Below are positions 4,222 to 64,000 of a stretch of DNA of 64,000 nucleotides, piece by piece. This DNA comes from Streptomyces fradiae. GTDB lineage: Bacteria; Actinomycetota; Actinomycetes; Streptomycetales; Streptomycetaceae. Location: contig NZ_CP065958.1 of assembly GCF_041270065.1 (NCBI RefSeq), positions 4,650,001 through 4,714,000 on the forward strand, written 5' to 3'. A program made the translations under genes and the position numbers. The notes under the pieces are model-generated. The model had not been told where the DNA came from. It ran no database searches and saw only the letters and a list, made by a program, of their open reading frames with translations. Positions within the stretch are counted from its first letter, which is position 1; every line of letters begins with the position of its first letter.

Positions 4222-4231
4222 GGGGCTGACC

Positions 4232-6133
4232 GTGGACAACCTCATCGCGCTGCTCGTCGCGGCGCCCCTGCTCGGAGCGGCCGTCCTGCTGTGCGGCGGA
4301 CGGCGGCTCGACAAGGCCGGGCACTGGCTCGGCACCCTGCTCGCCGGCGCGTCCTTCGTGATCGGCCTGGTCCTCTTCGCCGACATGCTCTCCAAGAGCG
4401 CCGACGACCGGACCCTGTACCAGAACCTGTACACCTGGATCCCCGTCGAGGGCTTCCAGGCGGACATCGCCTTCCAGCTCGACCAGCTCTCGATGACCTT
4501 CGTGCTGCTCATCACCGGAGTCGGCACGCTCATCCACCTGTACTCGGTCGGGTACATGGAGCACGACGAGCGCCGGCGCCGCTTCTTCGGCTACCTCAAC
4601 CTGTTCGTCGCGGCGATGCTGCTGCTCGTCCTCGCCGACAACTACCTGCTGCTCTACTTCGGCTGGGAGGGCGTCGGCCTCGCCTCGTACCTCCTGATCG
4701 GCTTCTGGCAGCACAAGCCCAGCGCGGCCACCGCCGCCAAGAAGGCCTTCCTGGTCAACCGGGTCGGCGACATGGGCCTGTCGATCGCGATCATGCTGAT
4801 GTTCACCACCTTCGGCACCTTCGCCTTCAACCCGGTCCTGCAGGAGGCAGCCGACGGCGCGGCCAGCGAGGGCAAGCTCACCGCCGTCGCGCTGATGCTG
4901 CTGCTCGCCGCCTGCGGCAAGTCCGCCCAGGTGCCGCTGCAGTCCTGGCTCGGCGACGCGATGGAGGGCCCGACCCCGGTCTCCGCCCTCATCCACGCCG
5001 CGACCATGGTGACCGCCGGTGTCTATCTGATCGTCCGCTCCGCCGACATCTTCAACGCGGCGCCGGACGCCCAGCTCGTCGTCACCGTCGTCGGCGCCGT
5101 CACGCTCCTCTTCGGTGCGATCGTCGGTTGCGCGAAGGACGACATCAAGAAGGCACTGGCCGGCTCGACGATGTCGCAGATCGGCTACATGGTCCTGGCG
5201 GCCGGCCTCGGCCCCATCGGCTACGCCTTCGCGATCATGCACCTGGTGACCCACGGCTTCTTCAAGGCCGGGCTGTTCCTCGGCGCCGGTTCGGTCATGC
5301 ACGGCATGAACGACGAGGTCGACATGCGGCACTACGGCGGCCTGCGCAAGTACATGCCGATCACCTTCGCCACCTTCGGCCTCGGCTACCTCGCGATCAT
5401 CGGCTTCCCCGGCCTGTCCGGCTTCTTCTCCAAGGACAAGATCATCGAGGCGGCCTTCGCCAAGGGCGGCACCGAGGGCTGGATCCTCGGCGCCTGCGCC
5501 CTCCTGGGCGCCGCCATCACCGCGTACTACATGACCCGCGTGATGCTGATGACCTTCTTCGGCGAGAAGCGCTGGCAGCCCGACGAGAAGGGCGAGCTGC
5601 CGCACCCGCACGAGTCGCCCAAGGTGATGACGATCCCGATGATCCTGCTGGCCGTCGGCTCGGTGTTCGCCGGTGGCATCTTCGGCATCGGCGACCGCTT
5701 CGTGAAGTGGCTGGAGCCGGTCACCTCGTTCGAGCACGGGCACCCGCCGATCAGCGCCGGGGCGATCACCGCCGCCACCGTCGTCGTCATGGTCCTCGGC
5801 GTCGGACTCGCCTGGCTCCAGTACGGGCGCCGCCCGGTGCCGGTCGTCGCCCCGCGCGGCTCCCTGCTCACCCGGGCCGCCCGCCGCGACCTGCTCCAGG
5901 ACGACTTCAACCACGTCGTCTTCGTCCGCGGCGGCACCCACCTGACCCGCTCCCTGGTCTATGTCGACCACAGCCTCGTCGACGGCGTGGTCAACGGCAC
6001 CGCGGCCTCCGTCGGCGGACTCTCCGGCCGGCTGCGCAAACTCCAGAACGGCTACGCCCGGTCCTACGCGGTCTCCATGTTCGGAGGCACGGCCGTGCTC
6101 ATCGCCGCGACCCTGCTGATGAGGGCGGTGTAA
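4232..6133 (+). CDS. nuoL: NADH-quinone oxidoreductase subunit L
   Basis: 633-residue distal antiporter-like subunit. The proton-channel residues are in place: Glu146 in [18 protein letters not shown], Lys230 in [14 protein letters not shown], and the following [20 protein letters not shown] block. The C-terminal part contains the expected long lateral helix and a final membrane anchor. GTG start 10 bases after the nuoK stop with an AGGGG site just upstream. Its length is close to the family norm (about 613-640 aa), unlike the NuoL of the second operon, which carries an insert. Confidence 0.96.
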
Positions 6134-6138
6134 CTGTC

Positions 6139-7710
6139 ATGTCTTTCCCGCTCCTTACGGTCACGGCGGCCGTGCCGGCGGTCGGCGCGGTGCTCACCGC
6201 GGCCGTCCCGGCGGCCCGCCGCACCGCCGCCAAGTGGCTGGCGCTGCTGATCTCGCTCGCCACCCTCGCGCTCGCCGCGGTCGTCTTCGTCCGCTTCGAG
6301 CCGGGCGGCGACCGCTACCAGCTGGTCGAGTCGCACGCCTGGATCAAGGACTTCGGCGTCCGCTACGAGCTCGGCGTGGACGGCATCGGGGTGGCCCTCA
6401 TCGGGCTCACCGCGCTGCTCATCCCGTTCATCGTGCTCGCCGGCTGGCACGACGCCGATCCGCTGGAGACCTCCTCCAAGCGGTGGCGGCCCACCCAGGG
6501 CTTCTTCGCCCTGATCCTCATGGTCGAGGCGATGGTGATCCTCTCCTTCGAGGCCACCGACGTCTTCCTCTTCTACATCCTGTTCGAAGCCATGCTCATC
6601 CCGATGTACTTCCTCATCGGCGGCTTCGGCGACCGCGCGCACAGCGGCACCGACGAGAACGCGGCGGCCCAGCGCTCGTACGCGGCGGTCAAGTTCCTGC
6701 TCTACAACCTGGTCGGCGGCCTCATCATGCTGGCCGCCGTCATCGGGCTCTATGTCGTCGCCGGCAACTTCTCCCTCACCGAGATCGCCGAGGCGCGCGC
6801 CAACGGCAGCCTGGAGATGGCGACCAGCACCGAGCGCTGGCTGTTCCTCGGCTTCTTCTTCGCCTTCGCGGTGAAGGCGCCGCTGTGGCCGCTGCACACC
6901 TGGCTGCCCAACGCGATGGGGGAGTCCACCGCCCCGGTCGCCGTCCTCATCACGGCGGTGGTCGACAAGGTCGGCACCTTCGCGATGCTCCGCTACTGCC
7001 TCGGGCTCTTCCCGGAGGCCAGCAAGTGGGCCACCCCGGTGATCGTCGCCCTGGCGCTGATCAGCATCGTGTACGGGGCGCTGCTCGCCGTCGGCCAGCG
7101 CGACATCAAGCGCCTGGTGGCCTACGCGTCGATCTCCCACTTCGGCTTCATCATCATGGGCATCTTCGCGATGACCAGCCAGGGCCAGTCCGGCGCCACG
7201 CTCTACATGGTCAACCACGGCATCTCGACCGCCGCCCTGATGCTGGTCGCCGGCTTCCTGATCTCCCGGCGCGGCTCGCGGCTCATCGCCGACTACGGCG
7301 GTGTGCAGAAGGCCGCGCCGATCCTGGCCGGTACCTTCCTGATCGGCGGTCTGGCGACCCTGTCGCTGCCCGGACTCGCCCCGTTCGTCAGCGAGTTCCT
7401 GGTCCTGGTCGGCACGTACTCCCGCTACCCGGTGGCCGGCATCATCGCCACCACCGGCATCGTCCTCGCCGCGCTCTACGTCCTCGTCCTCTACCAGCGG
7501 ACGATGACCGGCCCGGTGAAGGAGGAGACCCGGTCCATGCCGGACCTGCGGGTCCGCGAGCTCGCGGTGGTCGCCCCGCTGATCGCGGTGCTGATCTTCC
7601 TCGGGGTCTTCCCCAAGCCGCTGACGGACGTCGTCAACCCGGCGGTCCAGCACACCATGTCCGATGTCCAGCAGACGGACCCCGAGCCCGAAGTGGAGGC
7701 GGCCAAGTGA
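6139..7710 (+). CDS. nuoM: NADH-quinone oxidoreductase subunit M
   Basis: 523-residue antiporter-like subunit. The sequence shows Glu150 in FEAMLIPMYFLIGGFG, the conserved lysine in FAVKAPLWPLHTWLPNAMG and the second discontinuous-helix region with ASISHFGFIIMGIF. The ATG at 6139, five bases after the nuoL stop, gives the normal family N-terminus; the same frame stays open far upstream through nuoL but that is only a high-GC effect. The stop overlaps nuoN as GTGA. Confidence 0.96.
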   Translation: MSFPLLTVTAAVPAVGAVLTAAVPAARRTAAKWLALLISLATLALAAVVFVRFEPGGDRYQLVESHAWIKDFGVRYELGVDGIGVALIGLTALLIPFIVLAGWHDADPLETSSKRWRPTQGFFALILMVEAMVILSFEATDVFLFYILFEAMLIPMYFLIGGFGDRAHSGTDENAAAQRSYAAVKFLLYNLVGGLIMLAAVIGLYVVAGNFSLTEIAEARANGSLEMATSTERWLFLGFFFAFAVKAPLWPLHTWLPNAMGESTAPVAVLITAVVDKVGTFAMLRYCLGLFPEASKWATPVIVALALISIVYGALLAVGQRDIKRLVAYASISHFGFIIMGIFAMTSQGQSGATLYMVNHGISTAALMLVAGFLISRRGSRLIADYGGVQKAAPILAGTFLIGGLATLSLPGLAPFVSEFLVLVGTYSRYPVAGIIATTGIVLAALYVLVLYQRTMTGPVKEETRSMPDLRVRELAVVAPLIAVLIFLGVFPKPLTDVVNPAVQHTMSDVQQTDPEPEVEAAK

Positions 7711-9356
7711 CTCCAACGGCTGTCCACACCCTGTGGACGACGGCCGCCGGGCCGATCGACAAGATCCCGGCACCCCACATCGAGTACACCCAGCTGGCAC
7801 CCGTCCTCATCGTGGTCGGCGCCGCCGTGGTCAGCGTCCTCGTCGAGGCCTTCGTGCCGCGCAAGGGCCGCTACTTCGCCCAGGTGTTCCTGAGCGTCCT
7901 CGCGCTCGCCGCAGCCTTCGCGGCCGTCGTCGGCCTCGCCGCCGGCGGCTACGGCTCCACCAAGGCCCACATCGCGGCCATGGGCGCCATCGCCGTCGAC
8001 GGACCCGCCCTGTTCCTCCAGGGCACCATCCTGCTCGCCGCCGTCCTCGCGGTGCTCACCTTCGCCGAGCGCAGGCTCGACCCGGCCGACCACGGCCACC
8101 GGGTCGACTCCTTCGCCGCCGAGGCCGCCGCCGTACCCGGCAGCGAGCAGGAGAAGGCTGCCGTCAAGGCCGGCTTCACCACCACCGAGGTCTTCCCGCT
8201 GCTCCTGTTCGCGGTCACCGGCATGCTGGTCTTCCCGGCAGCCAACGACCTGCTGACCCTCTTCATCGCGCTGGAAGTCTTCTCGCTGCCGCTCTACCTG
8301 CTGTGCGCCGTCGCCCGCCGCAAGCGGCTGATGTCGCAGGAGTCCGCGGTCAAGTACTTCCTCCTCGGCGCCTTCTCCTCCGCCTTCCTGCTGTTCGGCA
8401 TCGCCCTGCTCTACGGCTACGCGGGCTCCGTCTCGTACGCCACGATCGCCGATGTCGTCAGCGGCGCCGTCCCGGCGATCGACCCGGCGCTCGCCGGCAC
8501 CATGGGCAACGACGTGCTGCTGCTCATCGGCTTCGCCATGGTGCTCATGGGCCTGCTCTTCAAGGTCGGCGCCGTCCCGTTCCACATGTGGACCCCGGAC
8601 GTCTACCAGGGCGCCCCGACCCCGGTCACCGGCTTCATGGCCGCGGCCACCAAGGTCGCCGCGTTCGGCGCGCTGCTGCGCCTGCTGTACGTGGTGCTGC
8701 CGGGCCTCACCTGGGACTGGCGGCCGGTCATGTGGGGCGTCGCCATCGTCACCATGCTGGGCGGTGCGATCGTCGCCATCACCCAGACCGACATCAAGCG
8801 GCTGCTCGCCTACTCGTCGATCGCCCACGCCGGCTTCCTCCTGGCCGGTGTCATCGCGGCCACGCCCAGCGGCGTCTCCTCGGTGCTGTTCTACCTGGGC
8901 GCCTACACCTTCGTGACGATCGGCGCCTTCGCCGTCGTCACCCTGGTGCGGGACGCGGGCGGCGAGGCCACCCACCTGTCCAAGTGGGCCGGACTCGGGC
9001 GCCGTTCGCCGCTCGTCGCCGCGGTCTTCGCGGTCTTCCTGCTCGCCTTCGCCGGCATCCCGCTGACCTCCGGATTCTCCGGCAAGTTCGCGGTCTTCAA
9101 GGCGGCGGCGGACGGCGGCGCGGGCGGGCTCGTCGTGATCGGTGTGATCTCCTCGGCGGTCGCCGCGTTCTTCTACATCCGGGTGATCGTGCTGATGTTC
9201 TTCAGCGAGCCGAAGGCGGACGGCCCCACGGTCGCTGTGCCCTCCGGGCTCACCTCGGTGGCGATCGCGGCCGGTGTGGTCGTGACGCTCGTGCTCGGCT
9301 TCGCGCCGCAGTACTTCCTGGACCTGGCGGGCCAGGCGAGCGTGTTCGTGCGCTGA
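7707..9356 (+). CDS. nuoN: NADH-quinone oxidoreductase subunit N
   Basis: 549-residue third antiporter-like subunit and last gene of this operon. The family landmarks are FIALEVFSLPLYLLCAVARR, LLFKVGAVPFHMWTPDVYQG and RLLAYSSIAHAGFLLAGV. A hydrophilic insert of about 35 residues (near residues 125-155, with the stretch HGHRVDSFAAEAAAV) is longer than in E. coli. GTG start overlaps the nuoM stop. A hairpin thirteen bases after the stop probably ends transcription. Confidence 0.96.
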   Translation: MTPTAVHTLWTTAAGPIDKIPAPHIEYTQLAPVLIVVGAAVVSVLVEAFVPRKGRYFAQVFLSVLALAAAFAAVVGLAAGGYGSTKAHIAAMGAIAVDGPALFLQGTILLAAVLAVLTFAERRLDPADHGHRVDSFAAEAAAVPGSEQEKAAVKAGFTTTEVFPLLLFAVTGMLVFPAANDLLTLFIALEVFSLPLYLLCAVARRKRLMSQESAVKYFLLGAFSSAFLLFGIALLYGYAGSVSYATIADVVSGAVPAIDPALAGTMGNDVLLLIGFAMVLMGLLFKVGAVPFHMWTPDVYQGAPTPVTGFMAAATKVAAFGALLRLLYVVLPGLTWDWRPVMWGVAIVTMLGGAIVAITQTDIKRLLAYSSIAHAGFLLAGVIAATPSGVSSVLFYLGAYTFVTIGAFAVVTLVRDAGGEATHLSKWAGLGRRSPLVAAVFAVFLLAFAGIPLTSGFSGKFAVFKAAADGGAGGLVVIGVISSAVAAFFYIRVIVLMFFSEPKADGPTVAVPSGLTSVAIAAGVVVTLVLGFAPQYFLDLAGQASVFVR

Positions 9357-47963: not shown

Positions 47964-50973
<3,010 letters not shown>

Positions 50974-51352: not shown

Positions 51353-52045
51353 CTACGAGTTGAGATAGGTCAGTACGGCGAGCACCCGGCGGTGGTCCCC
51401 GTCGCTCGGCGAGAGCCCCAGCTTCAGGAAGATGTTGCTGATGTGCTTCTCGACCGCGCCGTCGCTCACCACCAGCTGCTTCGCGATGGCCGAATTCGTG
51501 CGCCCCTCCGCCATGAGGCCCAGGACCTCCCGCTCGCGCGGCGTCAACCCCGCGAGCACGTCCTGCTTGCGGCTGCGGCCGAGCAGCTGCGCCACGACCT
51601 CCGGGTCGAGGGCCGTGCCGCCCCTGGCCACCCGTACCACCGCGTCCACGAACTCCCGGACCTCGGCCACCCGGTCCTTGAGCAGATACCCCACCCCGGT
51701 GCTCGAACCGGCAAGCAGCTCCGTGGCGTACTGCTCCTCCACGTACTGCGACAGGACCAGGACCCCGAGCCCCGGGTGCTCCTTCCGCAGCCGCACCGCC
51801 GCCCGTACCCCTTCGTCGGTGTGCGTCGGCGGCATCCGTACGTCGGCGACCACCACGTCCGGCAGCGCGCCCTCGCCCGCCAGGTCGGACACCGTCTTCA
51901 CCAGCGCCTCGCCGTCCCCGACCCCGGCCACGACCTCGTGCCCCAGATCGGTGAGGAGCCGCGTCAGACCCTCGCGCAGCAGCACCGAGTCCTCGGCGAT
52001 CACCACGCGCACTCCCACCACGCGCTCGCCCACCGCGCCACCCAT
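51353..52045 (-). CDS. NarL/LuxR-family response regulator
   Basis: 230 residues. Receiver domain with the acidic pair in VVIAEDSVLLREGL, phosphoacceptor Asp68 (VVVADVRMPP) and Lys in GYLLKDRV; the C-terminal LuxR helix-turn-helix is LTPREREVLGLMAEGRTNSA and VEKHISNIFLKLGL. ATG 52045 is chosen from homology; in-frame upstream codons are unlikely. It follows the two sensor kinases in the same direction and is the only response regulator present, so both kinases may phosphorylate it. Confidence 0.92.
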   Translation of the reverse strand: MGGAVGERVVGVRVVIAEDSVLLREGLTRLLTDLGHEVVAGVGDGEALVKTVSDLAGEGALPDVVVADVRMPPTHTDEGVRAAVRLRKEHPGLGVLVLSQYVEEQYATELLAGSSTGVGYLLKDRVAEVREFVDAVVRVARGGTALDPEVVAQLLGRSRKQDVLAGLTPREREVLGLMAEGRTNSAIAKQLVVSDGAVEKHISNIFLKLGLSPSDGDHRRVLAVLTYLNS

Positions 52046-52153
52046 GTTCCTCACACCCCTGTTCGTCTCGCTGCCGACGCTCAGCATCGCAGCAGTAGGG
52101 ACGCGGGGGGCGGGAACGGGGTTCAACTCGGCCAGGGGACTGGCGGTCCCGCC

Positions 52154-52226
52154 GGTATGGCGGTTCAGGGGCCCGGCGGCCCGGCCGGCGTGGCGGATCA
52201 GGGGCGCGGTACGGCGGTTCAGCGGC
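52154..52226 (+). repeat. Three 19-bp imperfect repeats around the sensor-kinase stop
   Basis: Copies at 52154-52172, 52187-52205 and 52208-52226 share the core GGCGG(T/A)TCAG(G/C)GGC. The third copy includes the minus-strand stop of sensor kinase 1; the others lie between it and the response-regulator gene. Probably a local duplication of the gene end. Confidence 0.6.
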
Positions 52227-53505
52227 GCCACGGGATCTCGGCGGTGACCGTGGTCGGGCCGCCGGCCGGGGAGTCGACGGCGAGCACCCCGTCGACCGCG
52301 TCGAGCCGCTCGGTGAGACCGGCCAGGCCGCTGCCGGCCGCCGGGTCGGCGCCGCCGACGCCGTCGTCCCGCACCTGGATCATCAGCCGCTCCTGCGACC
52401 GCCACACGTCCACCCACGCCCGCCGTGCCCGGGAGTGCTTGGACACGTTCTGCAGCAGCTCGGACACCGTGAAGTACGCGATGCCCTCGATCGCCGCGGC
52501 CGGCCGCTTCGGCAGGTCCACCTCCACCGACACCGGCACGGTCGACCGGGCGGCCAGCGCCGACAGCGCCGCGTCCAGACCGCGGTCGGTGAGGACCGCC
52601 GGGTGGATGCCGCGAGCGAGGTCACGCAGCTCCTGGAGGGCGAGCTTCACCTCGCCGTGCGCCTCGTCGACCATCACCGCCGCGGCCAGCGGATCCCCGG
52701 CCAGCTTCTCCTTCGCGAGCCCCAGATCCATGGCCAGGGCCACGAGCCGGGCCTGCGCGCCGTCGTGCAGGTCGCGCTCGATGCGCCGCAGGTCGGCTGC
52801 GGCCGTGTCCACGACCACGCCCCGGTCCGACTCCAGCTCCGTCACCCGGGTGGCCAGCCGCGACGGCCCGAGCAGCCCGGCCACCATGAGCCGGTCCACC
52901 GCCACCATGCCGCGCAGGACCCACGGCCCGACCAGCACGAAGACCAGGCCCACCAGACTCGTCACGGCGATCTCGAAGGGCGAGTTCAGATAGACGGAGT
53001 GCGCCTCGTCCCCGTAGATCTGCAGCCCGGCCTGCCCGGCGTACATCGGGAGCACCCACTGCCACAGCGGATACGTGAACAGGCTCCAGCCCCACGACCA
53101 CAGCGCCACCGTCACCGAGAACGTGAACACCGCCCACGGGAAGTGCAGCAGCGCGTAGAGCAGATGCCGCCAGGACGCCCCGCTCTTCAGCGTCGCGCCC
53201 ATCCAGGACAGCGCGCCCCCGGTCTTCCCCCGGGCCGGCTCCGGCGCCGCCACGTCGAGCCCGAGCATCCCGCGCGCCCGCGCCCGCTCCACGGCCCCGA
53301 ACCCGCGGCACATCGCGAGCGCGCCGGCCAGGACGGGGATGCCGAGGAAGGTGACGAGCAGCCCGGCACCGGTCGACACCAGGGACACGGCGAGACAGAA
53401 GTAGAGGACGCTCAGCGGGAAGCCGGTCAGGACGTAGCCCAGCTCGCGCCAGGTGCGTCCTTCGAAGGGGGCGCGGAGGCCGGCGGGCAGGCGGTGGGTG
53501 GCCAT
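52219..53505 (-). CDS. Sensor histidine kinase (NarX/LiaS class), copy 1
   Basis: 428 residues. N-terminal membrane part with four to six hydrophobic segments (YVLTGFPLSVLYFCLAVSLV, WAVFTFSVTVALWSWGWSLF, VTSLVGLVFVLVGPWVL) in a sensor-domain pattern typical of Streptomyces; then dimerisation/phosphorylation helix RIERDLHDGAQARLVALAMD (His) and a GHKL ATPase with FTVSELLQNVSKHS and DDGVGGADPAAGSGLAGLTE. There is no extracytoplasmic domain of note, suggesting it senses the membrane. The start is 159 bases downstream of the next kinase. Confidence 0.92.
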   Translation of the reverse strand: MATHRLPAGLRAPFEGRTWRELGYVLTGFPLSVLYFCLAVSLVSTGAGLLVTFLGIPVLAGALAMCRGFGAVERARARGMLGLDVAAPEPARGKTGGALSWMGATLKSGASWRHLLYALLHFPWAVFTFSVTVALWSWGWSLFTYPLWQWVLPMYAGQAGLQIYGDEAHSVYLNSPFEIAVTSLVGLVFVLVGPWVLRGMVAVDRLMVAGLLGPSRLATRVTELESDRGVVVDTAAADLRRIERDLHDGAQARLVALAMDLGLAKEKLAGDPLAAAVMVDEAHGEVKLALQELRDLARGIHPAVLTDRGLDAALSALAARSTVPVSVEVDLPKRPAAAIEGIAYFTVSELLQNVSKHSRARRAWVDVWRSQERLMIQVRDDGVGGADPAAGSGLAGLTERLDAVDGVLAVDSPAGGPTTVTAEIPWRR

Positions 53506-53605
53506 CGGAGATCCGTTTCTCACGCGGGGGCGGTCGGGGCGTTCGCTCGTGTTCCACCTTCGCGGGTGGGAGGGGCCCGGAACCATGAGGCAGGTGGGCG
53601 TCTGT

Positions 53606-53646
53606 GGCGGGGGGTTTTCCCTACCGGCGGGGGTTCTCCCTACCGG
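53606..53646 (-). promoter_or_regulatory. Two G-tract/CCCTACCGG boxes upstream of sensor kinase 1
   Basis: Copies at 53606-53627 and 53626-53646 on the plus strand have the form GGCGGGG(G)..TTC/TTCCCTACCGG and overlap by two bases. Each combines a G tract with CCC (dyad) and TACCGG. They are about 100-140 bases upstream of the start of sensor kinase 1 (53505). The same motif occurs at 54891-54923 before sensor kinase 2. Confidence 0.65.
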
Positions 53647-53664
53647 CCGACGGAGGCAGAGGCC

Positions 53665-54834
53665 TTACGACGCAGCCGGGCGGTCGCGGTCGCGGTCGCG
53701 CCACGGCAGTTCGGCGGTGACGACGGTGGGCCCGCCGGCCGGGGAGTCGACGGCCAGGACCCCGTCGACCGCGCCGAGCCGCTCGCCGAGCCCCGCGAGG
53801 CCGCTGCCGGCGGCCGGGTCGGCGCCGCCGGCGCCGTCGTCCCGTACCTGCAGCATCAGCCGCTCCTCCGTCCGCCACACGTCCACGGCGGCGGACCGGG
53901 CGCGGGCGTGCTTGGAGACGTTCTGCAGCAGCTCGGAGACGGTGAAGTAGGCGATGCCCTCGATCGCCTCGGCGGGCCGTTCGGGCAGGTCGACGGAGAC
54001 CTTCACCGGCACCGTGCAGCGGGCGGCGACCGCCGAGAGCGCCGCGTCGAGACCGCGGTCGGTGAGGACCGCCGGGTGGATGCCACGGGCGAGGTCGCGG
54101 AGCTCCTGGAGTGCGAGCTTCACCTCGCCGTGCGCCTCGTCGACCATCGCGGCGGCGGCCTCCGGGTCGTCGAGCAGCTTCTCCTTGGCGAGGCCGAGCC
54201 CCATGGCCAGGGCCACGAGCCGGGCCTGCGCGCCGTCGTGCAGGTCGCGCTCGATGCGCCGCAGGTCGGCGGCGGCGGTGTCGACCACCACCCCCCGGTC
54301 CGACTCCAGCTCGGCGATGCGCCGTTCCAGCTCGTCGGAGGGGGAGAGCAGCCCGCGCACCATCGCCCGGTCGACGTTGCCGAGCCCGCGCGCCACGAAG
54401 GGCAGCACCGGCCACAGCACGATCAGCGACACCAGGGTCACGGTGAAGGTGAGCACGCCCCAGGGCAGCCGGATGAACCCGTACAGCTGGCTGCGCCACG
54501 CCACCGGGTCCTTCAGCTGCGCCCACAGCCACGGCAGGAACCCGTCCCGGTGCGGCAGCCGGCTCGGCCGCTCCACGTGCACGCCGAGCAGCCCGCGGGC
54601 CCGGGCCCGTTCCGCGCCGGCCATGCCGCGCGCCCCGGCCAGGCCGAGCGCGAGGAGCGGCAGGCCGATGACGGTGACGGACAGGCCCACGCCGAGGGCG
54701 ATCGTCACCACCGCGTACACGAACCCGGCCAGCGCGCACGGCAGATCGGCGAGGAGGTGCGCGACCTCCTTCCAGGTGTGCCGGCCGTAGGCGAGGCTGG
54801 CGGGCGGCGGCGGGGTGTCGTTGAGGCTGCTCAT
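53665..54834 (-). CDS. Sensor histidine kinase (NarX/LiaS class), copy 2
   Basis: 389 residues, paralogue of copy 1. Hydrophobic segments (ALAGFVYAVVTIALGVGLSV, LPWGVLTFTVTLVSLIVLWP) fill the first 180 residues; from there the sequence is almost collinear with copy 1: RIERDLHDGAQARLVALAMG, FTVSELLQNVSKHA and DDGAGGADPAAGSGLAGLGE. The near-identical ATPase regions also look similar at DNA level, a possible site of recombination. It is divergent from nuoA of the second nuo operon, 162 bases apart. Confidence 0.92.
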   Translation of the reverse strand: MSSLNDTPPPPASLAYGRHTWKEVAHLLADLPCALAGFVYAVVTIALGVGLSVTVIGLPLLALGLAGARGMAGAERARARGLLGVHVERPSRLPHRDGFLPWLWAQLKDPVAWRSQLYGFIRLPWGVLTFTVTLVSLIVLWPVLPFVARGLGNVDRAMVRGLLSPSDELERRIAELESDRGVVVDTAAADLRRIERDLHDGAQARLVALAMGLGLAKEKLLDDPEAAAAMVDEAHGEVKLALQELRDLARGIHPAVLTDRGLDAALSAVAARCTVPVKVSVDLPERPAEAIEGIAYFTVSELLQNVSKHARARSAAVDVWRTEERLMLQVRDDGAGGADPAAGSGLAGLGERLGAVDGVLAVDSPAGGPTVVTAELPWRDRDRDRPAAS

Positions 54835-54890
54835 GGGATCAAGGTTGTCGGTTGGAGGGCCGCGCACGCCATGGGGGAGGTGGCCGGAGC

Positions 54891-54996: not shown

Positions 54997-55485
54997 GTGC
55001 GGGAACCGACCGTCGTCGCGGCGGAGTACGCGGCGACGAACCACGCGACGCCGAACGCGGGGACGCACCACGCGGCGACGCACCACGCGACGACTCACGC
55101 GGCGGACTACTTCGCGGCGGACTACTTCGAGACGTACTCCGTCGTCGGACTGCTGGCCGTGCTCGGCGTGCTCTTCGTCGCGGTCGCGTTCGGCGCGGGC
55201 CGGCTGCTGCGCCCGGTCGTCCCGACCCCGGAGAAGCTCCTCACCTACGAGTGCGGCGTCGACCCGGTGGGGGAGGGATGGGCCCACACACAGGTCCGCT
55301 ACTACGTGTACGCCTTCCTCTATGTGATCTTCGCCGTCGACTCGATCTTCCTCTTCCCCTGGGCCACGGTCTTCGCCGCGCCCGGATACGGGGCGACGAC
55401 GCTGGTCGAGATGTTCGTCTTCCTCGGCTTCCTGGCCGTGGGCCTGCTCTACGCGTACAAGAAGGGCGTCCTGGCATGGCTGTGA
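54997..55485 (+). CDS. nuoA: NADH-quinone oxidoreductase subunit A, second operon
   Basis: 162 residues. The conserved core starts at about residue 47: [36 protein letters not shown] (the loop between helices 1 and 2), [19 protein letters not shown] and [18 protein letters not shown], with the usual three membrane helices. Ahead of it is a His/Ala/Thr-rich repetitive leader of about 45 residues ([20 protein letters not shown]) not found in usual NuoA (120-140 aa). GTG 54997 with GAGGGG eight bases upstream is taken as the start; a shorter protein is conceivable. It heads a ten-gene operon. Confidence 0.9.
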
Positions 55486-56045
55486 CCCCCCTGCCCGCCC
55501 CCAAGCTGGGCCCGCTCGCCCGACTGGCGCCGGAGCCCATGAAGGTGGTCCTGAACTGGGGCCGCCGCTACAGCCTGTGGGTCTTCAACTTCGGCCTCGC
55601 CTGCTGCGCGATCGAGTTCATCGCCGCGTCGATGGCCCGCCACGACTTCATCCGGCTCGGCGTGATCCCCTTCGCGCCGGGCCCGCGCCAGGCCGACCTG
55701 ATGATCGTCTCCGGCACGGTGACCGACAAGATGGCGCCGGCGGTCAAGCGCCTGTACGAGCAGATGCCGGAGCCGAAGTACGTCATCTCCTTCGGCGCCT
55801 GCTCGAACTGCGGCGGTCCGTACTGGGACTCGTACTCCGTCACCAAGGGCGTGGACCAGATCATCCCGGTGGACGTGTACGTGCCGGGCTGCCCGCCGCG
55901 GCCCGAGGCGCTGCTCCAGGGCATCCTCAAGCTCCAGGAGAAGATCGCGCGGGAGAGCCTGGAGGAGCGGTACGGGAGTGCTCCCTCGGTCGCCCAGCTG
56001 ACGAGCGGTCTGGTGCAGCCCCCTGCCCCGGGAGGCAAGGCATGA
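55476..56045 (+). CDS. nuoB: NADH-quinone oxidoreductase subunit B, second operon
   Basis: 189 residues. Terminal iron-sulfur subunit that holds cluster N2 beside the quinone site. Ligand cysteines are in [12 protein letters not shown] (adjacent Cys pair), [17 protein letters not shown] and [16 protein letters not shown], all present. A basic stretch [21 protein letters not shown] contacts the quinone cavity. ATG 55476 overlaps the nuoA stop by ten bases; GTG 55482 is the alternative start. In ordinary complex I this subunit docks to NuoD and NuoC; NuoD is not encoded here. Confidence 0.94.
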
Positions 56046-57433
56046 GCGAGAACTTCGCGGACAGCTACGCGGCGCTGCCGGACTCGGTCGCCGAGGTCTT
56101 CGGCGAGGAGGCGACGGCGGAGCGGGCGTACGACCTGCTGACGGTCGATGTGCCCGTCGGCTCGTGGATCGCGGCGCTGGAGATCGCCCGGGACAAGCTG
56201 GGCCTCACGTACTTCGACTGGCTGAGCGCGGTGGACGAGCCGGGCGTCGGCTTCCGGGTGTGCGCGCACGTGGCGTCGGTGGGCCCGGGTTCCGTGCGCC
56301 GCCTCCTCGTCCGTACGACGGTTCCGCACGCGGCCGCGTCCCTGCCGTCCGCCATCGCGGTCTACGCGGGCGCGGCCTGGCACGAGCGCGAGACCCACGA
56401 GATGTTCGGCATCACCTTCACCGACCACCCCCACCTGGTCCACCTCCTCCTCCCCGACACCTTCGAGGGCCACCCCCTCCGCAAGGACTTCGTCCTCGCC
56501 GCCCGCGTCGCCAAGGCCTGGCCCGGCGCCAAGGAACCCGGCGAGTCCCACGACCCCCACGCCCCCAAGCGCCGCCAAATGCTCCCCCCGGGCGTCCCCG
56601 ACCCCAACGACTGGGGCCCCCTCAAGGGCCAACTCCCCCCGGCCCCCTCCCGCCCCGCCCGCGGCGCAGCCGCGGCCGGCGGCGACCGCCCGGTGCGCCG
56701 TACCCGTACGGCGGGCGAGGGCTCGGCGAGCCAGCCCCCGACGGCCGACCGCCCGGTCCGCCGCGCACGCACAGCGGGCGAGGGCTCCGCAAGCCAGCAG
56801 ACCGAGGCCACCCCGGCGGCACCGGAGGCGCCTGCCGCCGCCGGTACCCAGCCCTCTCCGGCCGTGCCGGAAACCCCGTCCGCCCCCGCGGCCGGCCCGC
56901 GCCGAAACCGCAGCGCGAGTGCGGGCTCCGCGAGCCAGCGAGCTGGGGCAACGGCTGAGCCCGGCTCGGCAGCGCCGGCCGAAGACCGAGACGCTTCCGC
57001 GCCGGCGGCGCCCGCCGCAGGCGGCGGTGAGCCGACAGCGGCCCCAGCAGCTCCTGCGGGCCCGCGCCGTAGCCGTACGGCGAGCGGCGGCTCCGCCAGC
57101 CAGCGGGCCGAAGGCCCGGACGCTGCCGCGCCCGACACGGCGGGAAACCCGGCTGCGCCGGCGGCTCCCGCCGGTCCGAGCCAGGACGCTGCCGTGTCCG
57201 GCGGCGACGCGCCGTCGGAGCGGCCCGCGGCCCCGCCGCGTACCCGCAGCTCGGACGCCCCGTGGCACCACGCCCGCCCGGCGTTCGACGAGGAGCCGCA
57301 GGCTCCGGCTCCGGAGCCCGAAGCGCCCGCGCAGGGCGAGCCCGCCCCGCCCGCCGAAGGCGAAGCCGCCCCGCCCGCGCAGGGCGAGCCCACCACCAAC
57401 CCCACCGACCCCGCCGGAGGCGACCCCGCGTGA
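56042..57433 (+). CDS. nuoC: NADH-quinone oxidoreductase subunit C, second operon, with long disordered tail
   Basis: 463 residues. The NuoC (30-kDa) domain is residues 1-195: [40 protein letters not shown] and [12 protein letters not shown], including the family WxERExxDxFG-like motif with HEMFG. The remaining 270 residues are rich in Pro, Ala, Gly, Ser and Thr, with four repeats of the form R(R/P)xR(T/S)xxxGSASQ (starting near 56684, 56747, 56895 and 57058). E. coli and Streptomyces nuo1-type NuoC lack such a tail. ATGA overlap with nuoB; GTGA overlap with nuoH. Confidence 0.9.
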
Positions 57434-58398
57434 ACGACGTACTCGACGTCGCCCTCCGGCTGATCATCGTCTTCGCCGCGTTCCTCGTCCTGCCGCTCGT
57501 CGTCGGGCAGACCGAGCACAAGGTCATGGCGCACATGCAGGGCCGGCTCGGGCCCATGTACGCCGGTGGGTTCCACGGGTGGGCGCAGCTGGTCGCGGAC
57601 GGGGTGAAGTTCGCGCAGAAGGAGGACGTCGTCCCGAAGGACGCCGACCGGCGGGTGTTCCAGCTCGCGCCGGCCGTCGCGCTCCTGCCGTACCTCCTCG
57701 TGCTCGTCGCGATCCCGATCGGGCCCAGCGAGGGCGCCGTCGGGCGGGTGGTCGACGCCGGCATCTTCTTCGTGCTCGCCGTGATGGGCGTCGGGGTGCT
57801 CGGCAGCCTGATGGCCGGCTGGGCGTCGGCCAACAAGTTCAGCCTGCTCGGCGCGCTCCGTACCGCCGCTCAGCTGCTCGCGTACGAGCTGCCGATGCTG
57901 CTCGCCGCCGCGTCCGTCGCGATGGCGGCCGGTACCGTCTCCCTCCCCGGCATCCTGAACGCCTTCGAGTGGTGGTGGGTGCCCTGGCAGATCGTCGGCG
58001 CGCTGGTGTTCTTCACCGCCGGGCTCGCCGAGCTGCAGCGCCCGCCGTTCGACATGCCGGTCGCCGACTCGGAGATCATCTTCGGCGCGTACACCGAGTA
58101 CACCGGCCTGCGCTTCGCGCTGTTCCTGCTCGCCGAGTACGCCGGCATCGTCGTGCTCTGCGGCCTCACCACCGTCCTCTTCCTCGGCGGCTGGCACGGA
58201 CCCGGCGGCGCCGACGGCCTCGGCTGGGTGTGGACGCTCCTGAAGACCGCCGTCCTGGCCTTCGTCGTGATCTGGCTGCGGGTCTCGTACCCCCGCCTGC
58301 GCGAGGACCAGCTGCAGAAGCTGGCCTGGACGACCCTCGTACCGCTCGCCCTCGCGCAGATCGCGCTCACCGGCATCGTGAAGGTGGCGATCCAGTAA
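57430..58398 (+). CDS. nuoH: NADH-quinone oxidoreductase subunit H, second operon
   Basis: 322 residues, close to the E. coli length and without the long tail seen in the first operon's NuoH. The signature region reads [28 protein letters not shown] (about residues 205-232); relative to NuoH1 several acidic residues are retained (E, D, D) but the ETNRAPFD start is [28 protein letters not shown] and [19 protein letters not shown] match the family. GTG start overlapping the nuoC stop as GTGA. Confidence 0.93.
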
Positions 58399-58400
58399 CC

Positions 58401-58949
58401 ATGGCTCCGATTCCCGGTTCCGGCCTTGCCAAGGGCCTCGCCGTCACCCTCCGCACGATGACCCGCAGGTCGGTCACCGCGCAGTACCCGGACGCGCAGC
58501 CCGAGCTGCCGCCCCGTACCCGCGGGGTCATCGGGCTGTTCGAGGAGAACTGCACGGTGTGCATGCTGTGCGCCCGTGAGTGCCCCGACTGGTGCATCTA
58601 CATCGACTCCCACAAGGAGACGGTGCCGGCCGCCGCCCCCGGCGGCCGCGAGCGCAGCCGCAACGTCCTCGACCGTTTCGCCATCGACTTCTCGCTCTGC
58701 ATGTACTGCGGGATCTGCATCGAGGTGTGCCCCTTCGACGCGCTGTTCTGGTCGCCCGAGTTCGAGTACGCGGAGACCGACATCCACGAGCTGACGCACG
58801 AGCGCGACAAGCTCCGCGAGTGGATGTGGACGGTGCCGGAGCCGCCCGCGCTCGACCCGCGCGCGGAGGAGCCGAAGGAGATCGCCGCGGCACGCAAGGC
58901 AGCGGAAAAGGCCGCCGCCCAGGCCCAGCAGCAGGAGGGCCCGCAGTGA
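58401..58949 (+). CDS. nuoI: NADH-quinone oxidoreductase subunit I, second operon
   Basis: 182 residues. Two [4Fe-4S] motifs: [12 protein letters not shown] (followed by DWC) and [18 protein letters not shown], all eight ligand cysteines present. The C-terminus is a charged, Ala/Lys/Gln-rich extension ([20 protein letters not shown]). Without NuoE/F/G encoded nearby, its electron donor would have to be another ferredoxin-like protein or the first complex's modules. ATG three bases after the nuoH stop. Confidence 0.94.
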
Positions 58950-59536
58950 CCCTGGCAGCACAGACTCTCGCCGCCCAGCCCTTGGCCGCAGCCGCCCAGA
59001 ACAGCCACGGCTTCCTCTCGCCCACCGGCGTCGAGATCACCTTCCTCCTCGTCGGCCTCGTCACCCTCGGCGCCGCCCTCGTCGCCGTCACCACCAAGCA
59101 GCTCGTGCACGCCGCCCTGTGGCTGGTCGTCGCGCTCGGCGGGCTCGCCGTCGAGTACCTGCTCCTCACCGCCGAGTTCATCGCCTGGGTTCAGGTGCTG
59201 ATCTACGTCGGTTCCGTCGTCGTGCTCCTCCTCTTCGGGCTCATGCTCACCCGGGCCCCCGTCGGCCGTTCCCCGGACTCCGACTCCGGCAACCGGCCGG
59301 TCGCCCTCGCCGTGGCGGTCGCCGCCGCCGCGGCGCTGGTGTGGGTGGTCGTGGACGCCTTCCGTACCACCTGGATCGACCTCGAAGGGCCGGCCCTCGG
59401 CTCCACGAAGGTGACCGGCGAGATCCTCTTCCAGCACTGGGTGCTGCCCTTCGAGGCGCTGTCCGTGCTGCTGCTCGCCGCCCTGGTCGGCGCCATCGTC
59501 CTGTCCCGCAAGCAGCAGGAAGGGGAGCGGGACTGA
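58946..59536 (+). CDS. nuoJ: NADH-quinone oxidoreductase subunit J, second operon
   Basis: 196 residues, nearer the E. coli length than NuoJ of the first operon (276 aa). Five membrane segments, including [40 protein letters not shown] (the conserved YxGxxxxL helix) and [18 protein letters not shown]. Residues 1-22 are Ala/Gln-rich. GTG start overlapping nuoI as GTGA. Confidence 0.92.
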
Positions 59537-59895
59537 TGCACCTCGCCTACCCGGCCGTCCTCGCCGCGCTCCTCTTCTCCGTCGGCCTGTACGGCGTCCT
59601 CGCCCGCCGCAACGCGATCCTGGTCCTGATGTCCGTCGAGCTCATGCTCAACGCCGTCAACCTCAACCTGGTCGCGTTCGACGTCTGGCTCCGCGACACC
59701 CTGCACGCCGGCCAGGCGCTCACCCTCTTCGTCATCGCCATCGCCGCCGCCGAGATCGGCATCGGTCTCGCGATCGTCCTGATGGTCTACCGCAACCGCG
59801 GCACCTCGGACGTCGACCGTCTCCGCGACGCGAAGGAACAACCGGAACCCGCCGACAAGCCGTCCGCCGACGAGAAGGCCGAGGCCACCGCGTGA
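59536..59895 (+). CDS. nuoK: NADH-quinone oxidoreductase subunit K, second operon
   Basis: 119 residues. Three helices with the two glutamates of the hydrophilic axis: [20 protein letters not shown] and [20 protein letters not shown]. The C-terminal 20 residues ([15 protein letters not shown]) are an acidic extension. TGATG overlap with nuoJ (one base shared). Confidence 0.95.
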
Positions 59896-61928
59896 CCACC
59901 ACGACCCTCGCCGTCCTCGTCCCCCTCCTCCCCTTCCTCGGCTCCGCCGCCGGTCTCCTGCTCGGCCGCACCGCCCCCGGCTTCGCCCGTCCCCTCGCCG
60001 TCCTGCCCACGCTCGCCGCCGCCGTCCTGGCGGTCGTCGTCGCGGCCCGGCACGGCGGCGGGAAGGCGATCGACGCCGCCACCCAGCTCACCCCGACCGG
60101 CTCCGTACCGATCGACCTGGCCCTGCACATCGACGGCTTCGCCGCCCTCGTCGCGGTCCTCGTCGGCGTGGTCGCCACCTGTGTGCAGATCTACTCGACC
60201 GGCTATCTGCGCCACGACCCGCGCTACTCCTCGTACGCCGCGCTCGTCTCCCTCTTCACCTCCGCGATGCTGCTCGTCGTCTACTCCGGCGACCTGATGG
60301 TGCTCCTGGTCGGCTGGGAGATCATGGGCATCTGCTCGTACTTCCTCGTCGGGCACTACTGGGAGACCCCCGAGGCCCGCTCGGCCTCCCTCAAGGCCTT
60401 CCTCGTCACCAAGCTCGGCGACGTGCCCTTCCTCATCGGCCTGTTCGCCCTGGCCGCCGACGCGGGCACCTTCCGGATCACCGGCGTGCTCGGCGCGGTC
60501 GCCACCGGCGGCCTCGACCACCCCACCCTGATCGCACTGCTGCTGCTCGCCGGCGTCGCCGGCAAGTCCGCGCAGTTCCCGCTGCACACCTGGCTGCCCG
60601 ACGCGATGGCCGGCCCCACCCCCGTCTCCGCGCTCATCCACGCGGCGACCATGGTCGCCGCCGGCATCTACTTCGTCGCCCGGCTCCTCCCCGTCTTCGC
60701 CGCCTCCGCCGCCGCGCTGACCGTGCTCGCCGTCATGGCCGCGGTCACCATGGTCGGCTCGGCGCTCGCCGCGCTCGCCCAGGACGACATCAAGCGGGTC
60801 CTCGCCTACTCGACGATCGGCCAGCTCGGCTACATGGCCGGCGCGCTCGCCGTCGCCGACCGCGGCGCCGCCGTCTTCCACCTCCTCGCGCACGGCGCCT
60901 TCAAGGCGCTCCTCTTCCTCGCCGCCGGCGCGGTCATCCACGCCGCCGGCACCAACTCGCTCACCGCCATGTCCCGGATGAGCGGACTGACCAAGCGCAT
61001 CCCGGACGCCTACTGGACGATGACCGTCGGCCTCCTCGCGCTCGCCGCGATCCCGCCCTTCGCCGGCTTCTTCTCCAAGGAAGCCGTCCTCGTCGCCGCC
61101 GAGCACACCGCCACCGGCGACCGCACCGTCGCCCCCGCCGGCGCCGGCTGGATCGTGCTCGTCGCCGGACTCCTCACCGCGCTGCTCACCGCCGCGTACG
61201 CGATGCGGCTCTGGCTGCTCGCCTTCCGCGGCCGGGGCGCCGAGGCCCCCGACCACGGCCGGCAGCCGGTCGCCATGACCACCGTCCTGTGGGTGCTCGC
61301 CATCCCCTCCTTCGGCTTCGGACTGACCGCCGGCTACCTCGACGACTGGTTCGACGGACACCCGCTGACCCCGACCCTGGTGACGGCCGTGCTCGGCACC
61401 GGCCTCGCCGTCGTCGGCGCCGCGCTCACCTACGCGATCCGGCGCACCCTCGTCGCCCGCACCGCGCCGCCCCCGGCCGCCGTCCAGGGCGTCCCGGTCG
61501 GCGCCGCGCCCGCGCCGGCCGCCGGGGCGCTCGCCGCACCGACCGTCGCCCACCCCGACGCCGAGGCCGGCCAGGTCGAGGCGGAGGCCCTGGACCTGCC
61601 GCACCCGGCGACCGACCCCGCCGACCCCGGCCGCGCCCTGCTCGGCCCGCTGCACCCGCACGCCGCCGACGGCTTCCACCTGGACGCCGTCTACCAGACC
61701 CTGTTCGTCCGCCCCGTGCTCGCCGGCGCCTCCCTGGTGCGCTTCCTCGACCGCGAGGTCGTCGACACGTACGTGAACGGCGCGGGCAGCACCGCCAAGG
61801 GTCTCGGCTGGCTCGTCCGCCGCGCCCAGACCGGCAACGTGCAGACCTACCTCAGCGCGCTGCTCGCCGGCTCCGTCGTCCTGGCGATCGTCGCCGTCGT
61901 CCTCGCCAACGTCGCCGCCGGAGCGTGA
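59892..61928 (+). CDS. nuoL: NADH-quinone oxidoreductase subunit L, second operon
   Basis: 678 residues. Antiporter core with [20 protein letters not shown] (Glu), [20 protein letters not shown] (Lys) and [20 protein letters not shown]. About residues 525-590 are an Ala/Pro/Glu-rich insert ([20 protein letters not shown] and following) in the loop before the lateral helix, absent from NuoL1. The last membrane anchor is [23 protein letters not shown] start overlaps nuoK as GTGA. Confidence 0.95.
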
Positions 61929-61931
61929 GCC

Positions 61932-63527
61932 GTGATCGATATCAGCGAATCCGTGATGCAGTTCCTTCTGGCGTTGATCGTCGCCGGCCCGCTCCTCGGC
62001 GCCGCCGCCGCGCTCCTGCCCGCCCCGCCCGGACTGAAGGGGAAGTCACCCGACCAGGCCGTGCTCCGCCACGGCGTGACCGTCACCGGCGTCATCCTGA
62101 TCGCCGCGATCGTCCTCGCGCTCGGCTTCGACCACGACCACCCCTCGACGATGCAGGCCACCACCGACATCACCTGGATCAAGGCACTCGACGTGCGGAT
62201 CCACCTCGGTGTCGACGGCATCTCCCTCCCCCTCCTGCTCCTGACCGCGCTGCTGACCTTCCTCTGCGCGCTCTACAGCTACTTCAAGCCCCCCACGGGA
62301 TCCACTGGACCCGCAGGCCCCGCCCCCAAGGCCTTCGTCGCCCTGCTGCTCGTCCTCGAGTCCGGCACCCTGGCGACCTTCGCCGTCCTCGACCTGGTCC
62401 TCTTCTTCCTGGCCTTCGAGACGGTCCTCATCCCGATGTACTTCCTCATCGCCCGCTGGGGCGGCCCGGGCCGGCGGGCAGCCGCCTGGAAGTTCGTCCT
62501 CTACACCCTGCTCGGCTCTATCGTCATGCTGCTCGGCCTCCTCCTCATCGGCGTCAAGGCGGGCACGTTCGACATGGTGGCACTGGCCACTGACAACGGC
62601 CGCGGACTGACCACATCCGTGCAGGTCATCGCCGTCCTCGCGATCGGGATCGGGCTCGCCGTGAAGACCCCGATGTGGCCGCTGCACAGCTGGCTCCCGG
62701 ACGCCCACACCGCCGCCCCGACCGTCGGCTCCGTGCTCCTCGCCGGCGTGCTCCTGAAGATGGGCACGTACGGGTTCGTCCGCATCGTGCTGCCGATCGC
62801 CCCCGACGGCATGCACACCTTCGCCCCGTACCTCGCCGCCTTCGCCGTCGCCGGCATCATCTACGGATCGCTCGCCTGCCTCGCCCTCGCGAAGCCCGGC
62901 GCCAGGGGCGACCTCAAGCGGCTCATCGCCTACTCCTCCGTCGGCCACATGGGCTTCGTCCTCCTCGGCATCGCCACCATGACCCCCACCGGCGTCAACG
63001 GCGCGCTGTTCGCCAACATCGCCCACGGCCTCATCACCGGCCTGCTCTTCTTCCTGGTCGGCGCGCTCAAGGACCGCTACGGCACCGCCGACCTCGACAC
63101 CCTCGCCGGGGCCACCGGCGCCGCCCTCTACGGCCGCGCCCCCCGCCTCGGCGCCCTGCTCGCCTTCGCCGCCGTCGCCTCCCTCGGCCTGCCCGGCCTC
63201 GCCGGGTTCTGGGGCGAGATGCTCGCCCTGTTCGGCGCCTTCGAACCGGCCGCGGGCCTCAGCCGCCCCGCCTTCCTCACCTTCATGGCGATCGGCGCCT
63301 TCGGCACCCTGCTCACCGCCGCCTACCTCCTCGTCGTGGTCCGCCGGGTCTGCATGGGCGGCCCCCGCCCGGCCGGCGAGACCGTGATCGCCGACGTCCA
63401 GGGGTACGAGTTCGCCGCCTGGACCCCGCTCGTCGCCCTCACCGTCCTCGCCGGACTGTGGCCCGCCGTCCTCCTCGGCCTCACCGACCCGGCCGTCCAG
63501 CAGCTCCTCGCGGGAGGCAACCAGTGA
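61932..63527 (+). CDS. nuoM: NADH-quinone oxidoreductase subunit M, second operon
   Basis: 531 residues. LFFLAFETVLIPMYFLIARW (conserved Glu), VKTPMWPLHSWLPDAHTAAP (conserved Lys) and RLIAYSSVGHMGFVLLGIAT define the antiporter core. The pumping residues are intact, so the second operon's membrane arm looks functional. GTG three bases after the nuoL stop, with GTGA overlap into nuoN. Confidence 0.95.
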   Translation: MIDISESVMQFLLALIVAGPLLGAAAALLPAPPGLKGKSPDQAVLRHGVTVTGVILIAAIVLALGFDHDHPSTMQATTDITWIKALDVRIHLGVDGISLPLLLLTALLTFLCALYSYFKPPTGSTGPAGPAPKAFVALLLVLESGTLATFAVLDLVLFFLAFETVLIPMYFLIARWGGPGRRAAAWKFVLYTLLGSIVMLLGLLLIGVKAGTFDMVALATDNGRGLTTSVQVIAVLAIGIGLAVKTPMWPLHSWLPDAHTAAPTVGSVLLAGVLLKMGTYGFVRIVLPIAPDGMHTFAPYLAAFAVAGIIYGSLACLALAKPGARGDLKRLIAYSSVGHMGFVLLGIATMTPTGVNGALFANIAHGLITGLLFFLVGALKDRYGTADLDTLAGATGAALYGRAPRLGALLAFAAVASLGLPGLAGFWGEMLALFGAFEPAAGLSRPAFLTFMAIGAFGTLLTAAYLLVVVRRVCMGGPRPAGETVIADVQGYEFAAWTPLVALTVLAGLWPAVLLGLTDPAVQQLLAGGNQ

Positions 63528-64000
63528 AGCCAGTGCTGCAGCTCGCCCAGGGCGCCGATCTCGTCCAGTCCGTCGACTGGCTCGCCATCGCGCCACCCAC
63601 CCTCACCGCGCTGGTCGCGCTGGTCGTCCTCGTCGCCGACCTGTTCGTCCCCGAGGCGCGCAAGCGGCTCCTCGGCTGGACCGCGATCGCCGGCCTCGCC
63701 GCCGCGCTCGCACTGCTCGCCCCGCTGCGCGCGGCCGACCGCTCCACCTTCTGCCTCACCGCCGCCACCGAGCTGCGCGCGTGCAGCTACACCGCCGACA
63801 CCTTCACCCTGGTCATCCAGTTCCTGGTGCTCGCGGGCGCGCTCGTCACCGCCCTGCTCTCGCTCGACGACACCGACGGCGCCCGCCGGAAGCTGCCCGC
63901 CGGCGAGTACTGGTTCCTGCTGCTCTCCTCCGCCGCCGGCGCCGCTCTGCTGCCCGCCTCCCGCGACCTCGCCACCCTCGTCGTCGCCCTCGAAGTGGCC
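63524..64000 (+). CDS. nuoN: NADH-quinone oxidoreductase subunit N, second operon, 5' part
   Basis: 159 codons visible; the gene runs off the window. Start GTG overlaps the nuoM stop. Visible segments SVDWLAIAPPTLTALVALVV and EYWFLLLSSAAGAALLPASR are in the family order, ending just before the LFVALE-type motif (here RDLATLVVALEVA). Whether more nuo genes follow cannot be told. Confidence 0.9.
   Translation, partial: MKPVLQLAQGADLVQSVDWLAIAPPTLTALVALVVLVADLFVPEARKRLLGWTAIAGLAAALALLAPLRAADRSTFCLTAATELRACSYTADTFTLVIQFLVLAGALVTALLSLDDTDGARRKLPAGEYWFLLLSSAAGAALLPASRDLATLVVALEVA

Follow-up and report, generated by a model that had tools for sequence, protein, structure and literature searches.

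The window analyzed here (64,000 nucleotides; positions 4,650,001–4,714,000 of the 7.88-Mb, single-contig genome of Streptomyces fradiae) contains nuo2, a second nuo operon that starts 46 kb beyond the ordinary 14-gene nuo1 operon, which ends within window positions 1–9356. Judged from its genes, nuo2 and a distant midA-nuoD2 pair likely encode a dedicated, ferredoxin-fed 11-subunit complex I that lacks the NADH module and has a remodeled quinone site. The two loci would supply subunits A, B, C, D and H–N of one complex. KorAB, a 2-oxoacid:ferredoxin oxidoreductase, would reduce ferredoxin, and the electrons of ferredoxin would enter NuoI2 and pass to cluster N2 in NuoB2. Menaquinone would be reduced (or the enzyme would work in reverse) at a site with a tryptophan in NuoD2 and a valine in NuoH2, and L2, M2 and N2 would pump protons.

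NuoD2 and midA outside the nuo2 operon

The initial annotation had described nuo2 as lacking nuoD, -E, -F and -G between nuoC and nuoH, and had suggested that the complex either takes its NuoD from the first operon or has none. The first point was confirmed. The ten plus-strand open reading frames (ORFs) follow in the order A2 B2 C2 H2 I2 J2 K2 L2 M2 N2, overlapping or a few bases apart; the end of nuoC2 shares 4 bases with nuoH2, leaving no room for a gene between them. The suggestion about NuoD was not borne out: a full-length NuoD2, missed in that annotation, is encoded 1.2 Mb from nuo2 in addition to NuoD1. With D2 outside the operon, all 11 subunits (A, B, C, D and H–N) are encoded in the genome. 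The nuoD2 gene overlaps a gene for a MidA/NDUFAF7-type methyltransferase (midA-nuoD2 pair, genome positions 3,492,310–3,494,648). The midA product has the COG1565/MidA methyltransferase fold, and NuoD2 shares up to 94% identity with proteins of named Streptomyces species.

The distribution of these genes was examined in 216 genomes of the class. NuoD2 was present in at least 84 of them (matches listed; more divergent copies may be missed) and NuoH2 in 51, all of which also have NuoD2; NuoH2 was found in none of the remaining 132 genomes. Both proteins are retained in all 21 genomes of the genus examined. Of the 84 NuoD2 genomes, 75 encode MidA (≥100 bits), compared with 1 of the 132 others; in 72 of these 75, midA and nuoD2 are no more than 12 kb apart, and in 3 they are on different contigs. 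Many actinomycetes share a conserved nuoD2-midA neighborhood (L005, L079–L098), of which one flank, as read from translations, resembles ftsH-folate genes and the opposite flank panC-nadB-type genes.

When 158 genomes of the phylum were searched, relatives of NuoD2 turned up in other classes, and 18 loci picked from these matches were read. At 14 of the 18, an A-to-N operon has a NuoD homologue encoded between C2 and H2 (J was not detected in L288, and L279 runs off its contig within M2); the NuoD2 copy of L290 is unlinked, and L285–L287 belong to an ordinary 11-subunit type. Ten of the 14 linked operons lie near the end of nuo1, and a midA homologue directly follows nuoN2 in four. Both the NuoD and the NuoB tree placed every nuo2 sequence on one side of a branch (Shimodaira-Hasegawa-like approximate likelihood ratio test [SH-aLRT] support of 99 each), and the unlinked NuoD2 proteins form a single clade (SH-aLRT 100); these are quick trees supported by SH-aLRT only, with long branches among the reduced lineages discussed below and genome G060 scored as reduced. 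Because 14 of the 18 loci have NuoD between C2 and H2 and four have midA after nuoN2, nuoD2 and midA probably moved together, and once, out of an 11-subunit operon that also held midA; this is the simplest history.

These data bear on the proposal that nuo2 borrows NuoD1 or swaps subunits with nuo1 to form an alternative membrane arm. Such borrowing or a hybrid has been proposed in print for Streptomyces (PMC9239103, PMC3765725), and the two operons are only 46 kb apart in one genome. We nevertheless regard it as improbable: a dedicated NuoD2 accompanies NuoH2 in 51 of 51 genomes, NuoD2 clades with the NuoD that other classes encode inside the operon, and NuoD2 and NuoH2 share paired substitutions unseen in NuoD1 and NuoH1.

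Substitutions at the quinone site and sets without a membrane arm

Tyr87 of Thermus Nqo4 is the quinone-binding tyrosine (PMC8119997, PMC8042128). The corresponding residue of NuoD2 is Trp in every genome compared, both those with NuoH2 (39 of 39) and those without it (29 of 29), but Tyr in 22 of 22 NuoD1 rows, which include the gene of the studied genome twice. The Trp seen in 80 of 80 named loci was not counted as evidence, since one search pattern contained it. At the position of Nqo4 Thr64, the counterpart of human Arg85 (PMC3829151), all 68 NuoD2 proteins have Arg and all 22 NuoD1 rows have Thr; the arginine targeted by NDUFAF7 thus lies within an HRGxE motif (discussed in PMC8042128) that NuoD2 has and NuoD1 lacks. 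While the complex assembles, MidA would most likely dimethylate this 'HRG' arginine in NuoD2, the modification that NDUFAF7 makes in NDUFS2. Among the 18 loci from other classes, 15 encode a NuoD with the same Trp and Arg pair, and the other three combine Tyr with Arg. An ordinary second kind of 11-subunit nuo operon, present in the same phylum (L285–L287), encodes a NuoD with the quinone-site Tyr plus the HR arginine.

NuoH2 differs as well, a point that had also escaped the initial annotation. At the position of E. coli NuoH Glu216, 90% of 40 NuoH2 rows have Val, and all 14 linked loci of other classes have either Val or Ile; Glu is kept in NuoH1 of the studied genome and in three ordinary 11-subunit operons. 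The quinone histidine, Nqo4 H38, is conserved in NuoD2 of 39 of 39 genomes with NuoH2 and 26 of 29 without it. The idea of a different quinone module, raised in the initial annotation, is unexpectedly supported by these residues of NuoD2 and NuoH2, though NuoD itself is not absent. Since the quinone Tyr that characterizes 11-subunit complex I is Trp in 68 of 68 NuoD2 proteins, nuo2 is classed as a variant of that complex rather than a plain member.

NuoH2 is absent from 33 of the 84 NuoD2 genomes, a group that takes in G060 (fragmented, with NuoA2), G014 (contig stops just past C2) and G169 (NuoB2 not detected). At the 27 loci examined in such genomes, NuoB2, C2 and I2 occur together and no nuo2-type J–N genes were seen, J2–N2 having been looked for in these loci only. 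In L100, I2 lies ∼4 kb away from B2-C2; in L101 (G026), a weak NuoA2 match was found. Decay appears to be under way in L101, where NuoH2 fragments lie between C2 and I2, and in L133 (G173), where short korA/korB remnants lie beside B2-C2-I2. With NuoD1 as the root, a NuoD2 tree covering 68 genomes places the NuoH2-bearing form at the base, and the loss of NuoH2 takes three changes.

Relaxation was assessed over the 147 NuoD2 positions conserved in genomes with NuoH2. Relaxed positions concentrate at Nqo4 residues 26–50 and 127–152 (24 of 38 vs. 21 of 109 elsewhere; Fisher p 1e-6, with the windows picked after seeing the data). The first segment holds the quinone histidine loop and the second holds Asp139, which we take to be the aspartate directed towards ND1; PMC8119997 locates the histidine loop by the quinone and describes an ND1-facing aspartate. 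NuoB2 of the lineages without NuoH2 is relaxed around residues 30–76, and its N2 ligands and GGPYWD are kept. Because relaxation falls at quinone- and NuoH-facing positions while the N2 ligands and the Trp persist, we read these sets as freed from NuoH and the quinone tunnel but retaining the chemistry beside N2. The reduced modules may instead dock on the nuo1 membrane arm, as several of them sit right after nuo1; the relaxation at NuoH-facing positions speaks against this. A scan of ten neighbors of reduced loci (L100, L101, L103, L104, L107) revealed no new partner gene: the products were CorA, an NTP transferase, NUDIX, AtuA, an acyl-CoA dehydrogenase and an M48 peptidase, and one had no match.

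It is possible, though we doubt it, that NuoB2-C2-D2-I2 passes ferredoxin electrons to a non-quinone acceptor at the Trp site, with the membrane arm coupling ion transport in some lineages and being dispensable in others. The invariant Trp, the loss of the conserved Glu from NuoH2 and the pattern of relaxation in NuoD2 and NuoB2 all agree with this. Taken further, and just as tentatively, the catalytic site may have left quinone altogether: B2-C2-D2-I2 would then be a KorAB/ferredoxin-linked redox module, with the Trp site and a MidA-modified arginine near N2, that drives its own membrane arm in Streptomyces and has become a free-standing soluble enzyme, derived from the complex I Q-module, in about three other actinomycete lineages. 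However, H38 is kept in nearly all NuoD2 proteins, Trp may still bind quinone, the neighbors of the reduced loci vary, and neither a candidate acceptor nor an additional cofactor site was found.

The same losses could be taken to mean that nuo2 is a decaying, functionless relic, for NuoH2 was lost about three times in related lineages, G026 has only NuoH2 fragments and G173 only a 41-residue korA remnant. We consider this very improbable for nuo2 itself: NuoD2 and NuoH2 persist in every genome of the genus examined, the cluster and pump residues are intact, the genes are reported as one expressed operon (PMC3765725), and S. coelicolor is reported to contain more of the Nuo2 proteins than S. 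lividans does (PMC9739823).

The probable electron donor and the genes of nuo2

Upstream of nuo2, on the minus strand and divergent from it, lie korA (49036..50973; alpha subunit of 2-oxoacid:ferredoxin oxidoreductase, TIGR03710 659 bits vs. a cut-off of 483) and korB (47964..49043; beta subunit, PF02775, with TIGR02177 PorB_KorB at 247 bits, just below its cut-off of 262). The search for KorA covered 79 NuoD2 genomes, leaving out five (G018, G113, G147, G169 and G208), and gave a match in 72, one of them being the G173 remnant. By a reading of the search rows, 81 of the 84 NuoD2 genomes have NuoB2, and 77 were entered into the korA-nuoB2 distance count. Where both genes were located (70 genomes), they are divergent and within 10 kb in 51, and within 500 bp in 17 of these. 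Because korAB is divergent from and near to nuo2 in most of these genomes, reduced ferredoxin is probably the donor and is our best guess. The initial annotation had raised a different donor as one possibility; the operon indeed has no NADH module of its own, and such a donor is likely. Its remark that there is no obvious substrate is softened by these divergent neighbors.

Several observations weigh against our proposal. KorA was missing from 7 of the 79 NuoD2 genomes searched and from all 18 loci read in other classes; korA and nuoB2 are on different contigs in 17 of the 70 genomes and far apart in 2. MidA was not found among the candidates scored (at most 8 per genome) in 9 of the 84 NuoD2 genomes, and the unlinked NuoB2 rows are not one clade in the NuoB tree (2 changes). 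The 33 genomes without NuoH2 imply that NuoD2 is not everywhere dependent on a membrane arm, and the Trp in NuoD2 and Val/Ile in NuoH2 put quinone reduction in doubt.

Between korAB and nuo2, three two-component genes (51353..54867, minus strand; a response regulator and two histidine kinases, as read from translations with no family scan) match AbrC1–C3 of S. coelicolor by place; in that species, the AbrC genes are divergent from SCO4599–4608 (PMC9739823). The two histidine kinases are adjacent and alike, and accompanied by the response regulator, in the genus. In one member (G076), korA is just 900 bp from nuoB2.

The products of nuoA2 to nuoM2 each match the expected Pfam family (E 2.7e-11 or better), all on the plus strand. 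The nuoA2 gene (54997..55485; PF00507, 1.6e-30) has an uncertain start codon, the family match beginning at residue 62. It is followed by nuoB2, the cluster N2 carrier (55476..56045; PF01058, 2.7e-29; TIGR01957 above cut-off), and nuoC2 (56042..57433; PF00329, 4.1e-31 at residues 36–155). Then come nuoH2 (57430..58398; PF00146, 7.1e-99), in which Val211 stands where E. coli NuoH has Glu216, and nuoI2 (58401..58949; PF00037, 2.7e-11), predicted to hold two 4Fe-4S clusters, with NuoI-type models matching below their cut-offs. The membrane arm continues with nuoJ2 (58946..59536; PF00499, 4.6e-36), nuoK2 (59536..59895; PF00420, 1e-29), nuoL2 (59892..61928; PF00361, 1e-71; TIGR01974 above cut-off) and nuoM2 (61932..63527; PF00361, 2.7e-61; TIGR01972 above cut-off). 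The first part of nuoN2 (63524..64000) resembles solved NuoN-type chains (best E 4e-57); the gene outruns the window and ends at genome position 4,715,065, equivalent to window coordinate 65065 (L008:1525-3066). The four N2-cluster cysteines are present in 48 of 48 NuoB2 rows, the NuoI2 translation contains both CxxCxxCxxxCP motifs, and Glu and Lys residues of L2, M2 and N2, among them those we take to do the pumping, align with those of solved chains. The tight operon with intact cluster and pumping residues reported in the initial annotation is thus upheld.

NuoC2 ends in a low-complexity, Pro/Ala-rich tail of ∼290 residues with four RRx[R]-[ST]A-GSASQ-type repeats (residues 219, 240, 287 and 342). 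One to four SASQ repeats occur in 11 of 11 NuoC2 tails compared from the genus and in 0 of 2 from other families. A NuoD fused into NuoC2 was ruled out, as the tail is of low complexity and has no Pfam match.

A nuoD directly downstream would have contradicted the initial annotation. In the 6.9 kb past nuoN2, no Nuo-like ORF was seen when the ORFs were read by eye, and genome-wide searches found no NuoD, NuoE or NuoF homologue there (NuoG was not searched), ruling out D, E or F of a second NADH module at that place. Across the genome, those searches located NuoE and NuoF types nowhere other than nuo1 and a distant fused ORF, and so none with nuo2. This NuoE-NuoF-type ORF (L292; genome positions 6,964,899–6,965,918, open frame of 598 amino acids) adjoins a 914-residue ORF that, read with no family scan, resembles a formate dehydrogenase alpha subunit; given this neighbor and its place elsewhere in the genome, it was rejected as a second NADH module of nuo2. 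Near nuoA2, no sigma-70-type promoters, terminators or Rfam families were found.

Comparison with known systems

The proteins do not score as F420H2 dehydrogenase (Fpo) subunits, five models staying below their curated cut-offs (FpoC 52/220, FpoH 227/475, FpoI 55/180, FpoL 322/1050 and FpoD 312/600 bits). Nor does NuoD2 resemble the corresponding subunit of a group 4 [NiFe]-hydrogenase, its translation having no CxxC nickel ligands. The genome has a third complex I-like locus (L006; ∼7,017,500–7,024,300) with Hyf-type B, C, E, F and G proteins; its G-type protein is without any CxxC and hence without nickel ligands.

The literature already describes the Streptomyces nuo2 operon (SCO4599–4608) as lacking the NADH (N) module and having its nuoD2 apart from it (PMC3765725, PMC8388888); the function of the operon has been called unclear, with a hybrid considered possible (PMC9239103). 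The system studied here is the same, with nuoD2 elsewhere and no N module. The parts of those papers considered here say nothing of the midA neighbor, the Trp/Arg signature, korAB, the operon of other classes that includes nuoD, or the sets without a membrane arm. PMC9239103 lists NuoC and NuoL among the missing subunits, but both are present in the studied genome. The action of NDUFAF7/MidA on NDUFS2 (PMC3829151, PMC8042128) involves the same fold and the same target arginine in HRGxE; here, in contrast, the partner would be the NuoD of an actinobacterial complex without the NADH module.

A literature search that covered few subscription papers, some sources in part, returned nothing on MidA with NuoD2, the NuoD2 Trp, the korAB link or the armless sets. 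Apparently new, then, are (i) the Trp for the quinone Tyr in all 68 NuoD2 proteins, along with the NDUFAF7-target Arg absent from NuoD1; (ii) the Val/Ile for a conserved Glu in NuoH2; (iii) the divergent korAB, which in 51 of 70 genomes lies no more than 10 kb from nuoB2; and (iv) some three lineages that lack NuoH2 and keep B2-C2-I2 and D2, relaxed at quinone- and NuoH-facing positions. The NuoD of a well-known Streptomyces operon is hereby located, and the operon is tied to a complex I methyltransferase and a ferredoxin-producing enzyme. In every genome examined this natural complex I family carries Trp at the quinone tyrosine, and close relatives dropped NuoH2 yet kept the peripheral module. 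Gene removals in a laboratory Streptomyces could address both the electron source of complex I enzymes that lack the NADH module and the features of the site near N2 on which quinone reduction and coupling depend.

Cyanobacterial and plastid NDH-1 is a ferredoxin-fed complex I without the NADH module. The nuo2 complex would resemble it in both respects, ferredoxin being its likely donor; the nuo2 operon encodes none of the extra ferredoxin-docking subunits of NDH-1, at which no search was aimed. NDH-1 is mentioned also in PMC11238625, where 11-subunit complexes of unsettled donor are treated and ferredoxin is proposed. The Desulfitobacterium hafniense complex of that paper has the same 11 core subunits and likewise no NuoE, F or G; in contrast to it, nuo2 has its nuoD, with midA, 1.2 Mb away, carries the Trp in NuoD and the Val in NuoH, and is linked to korAB.

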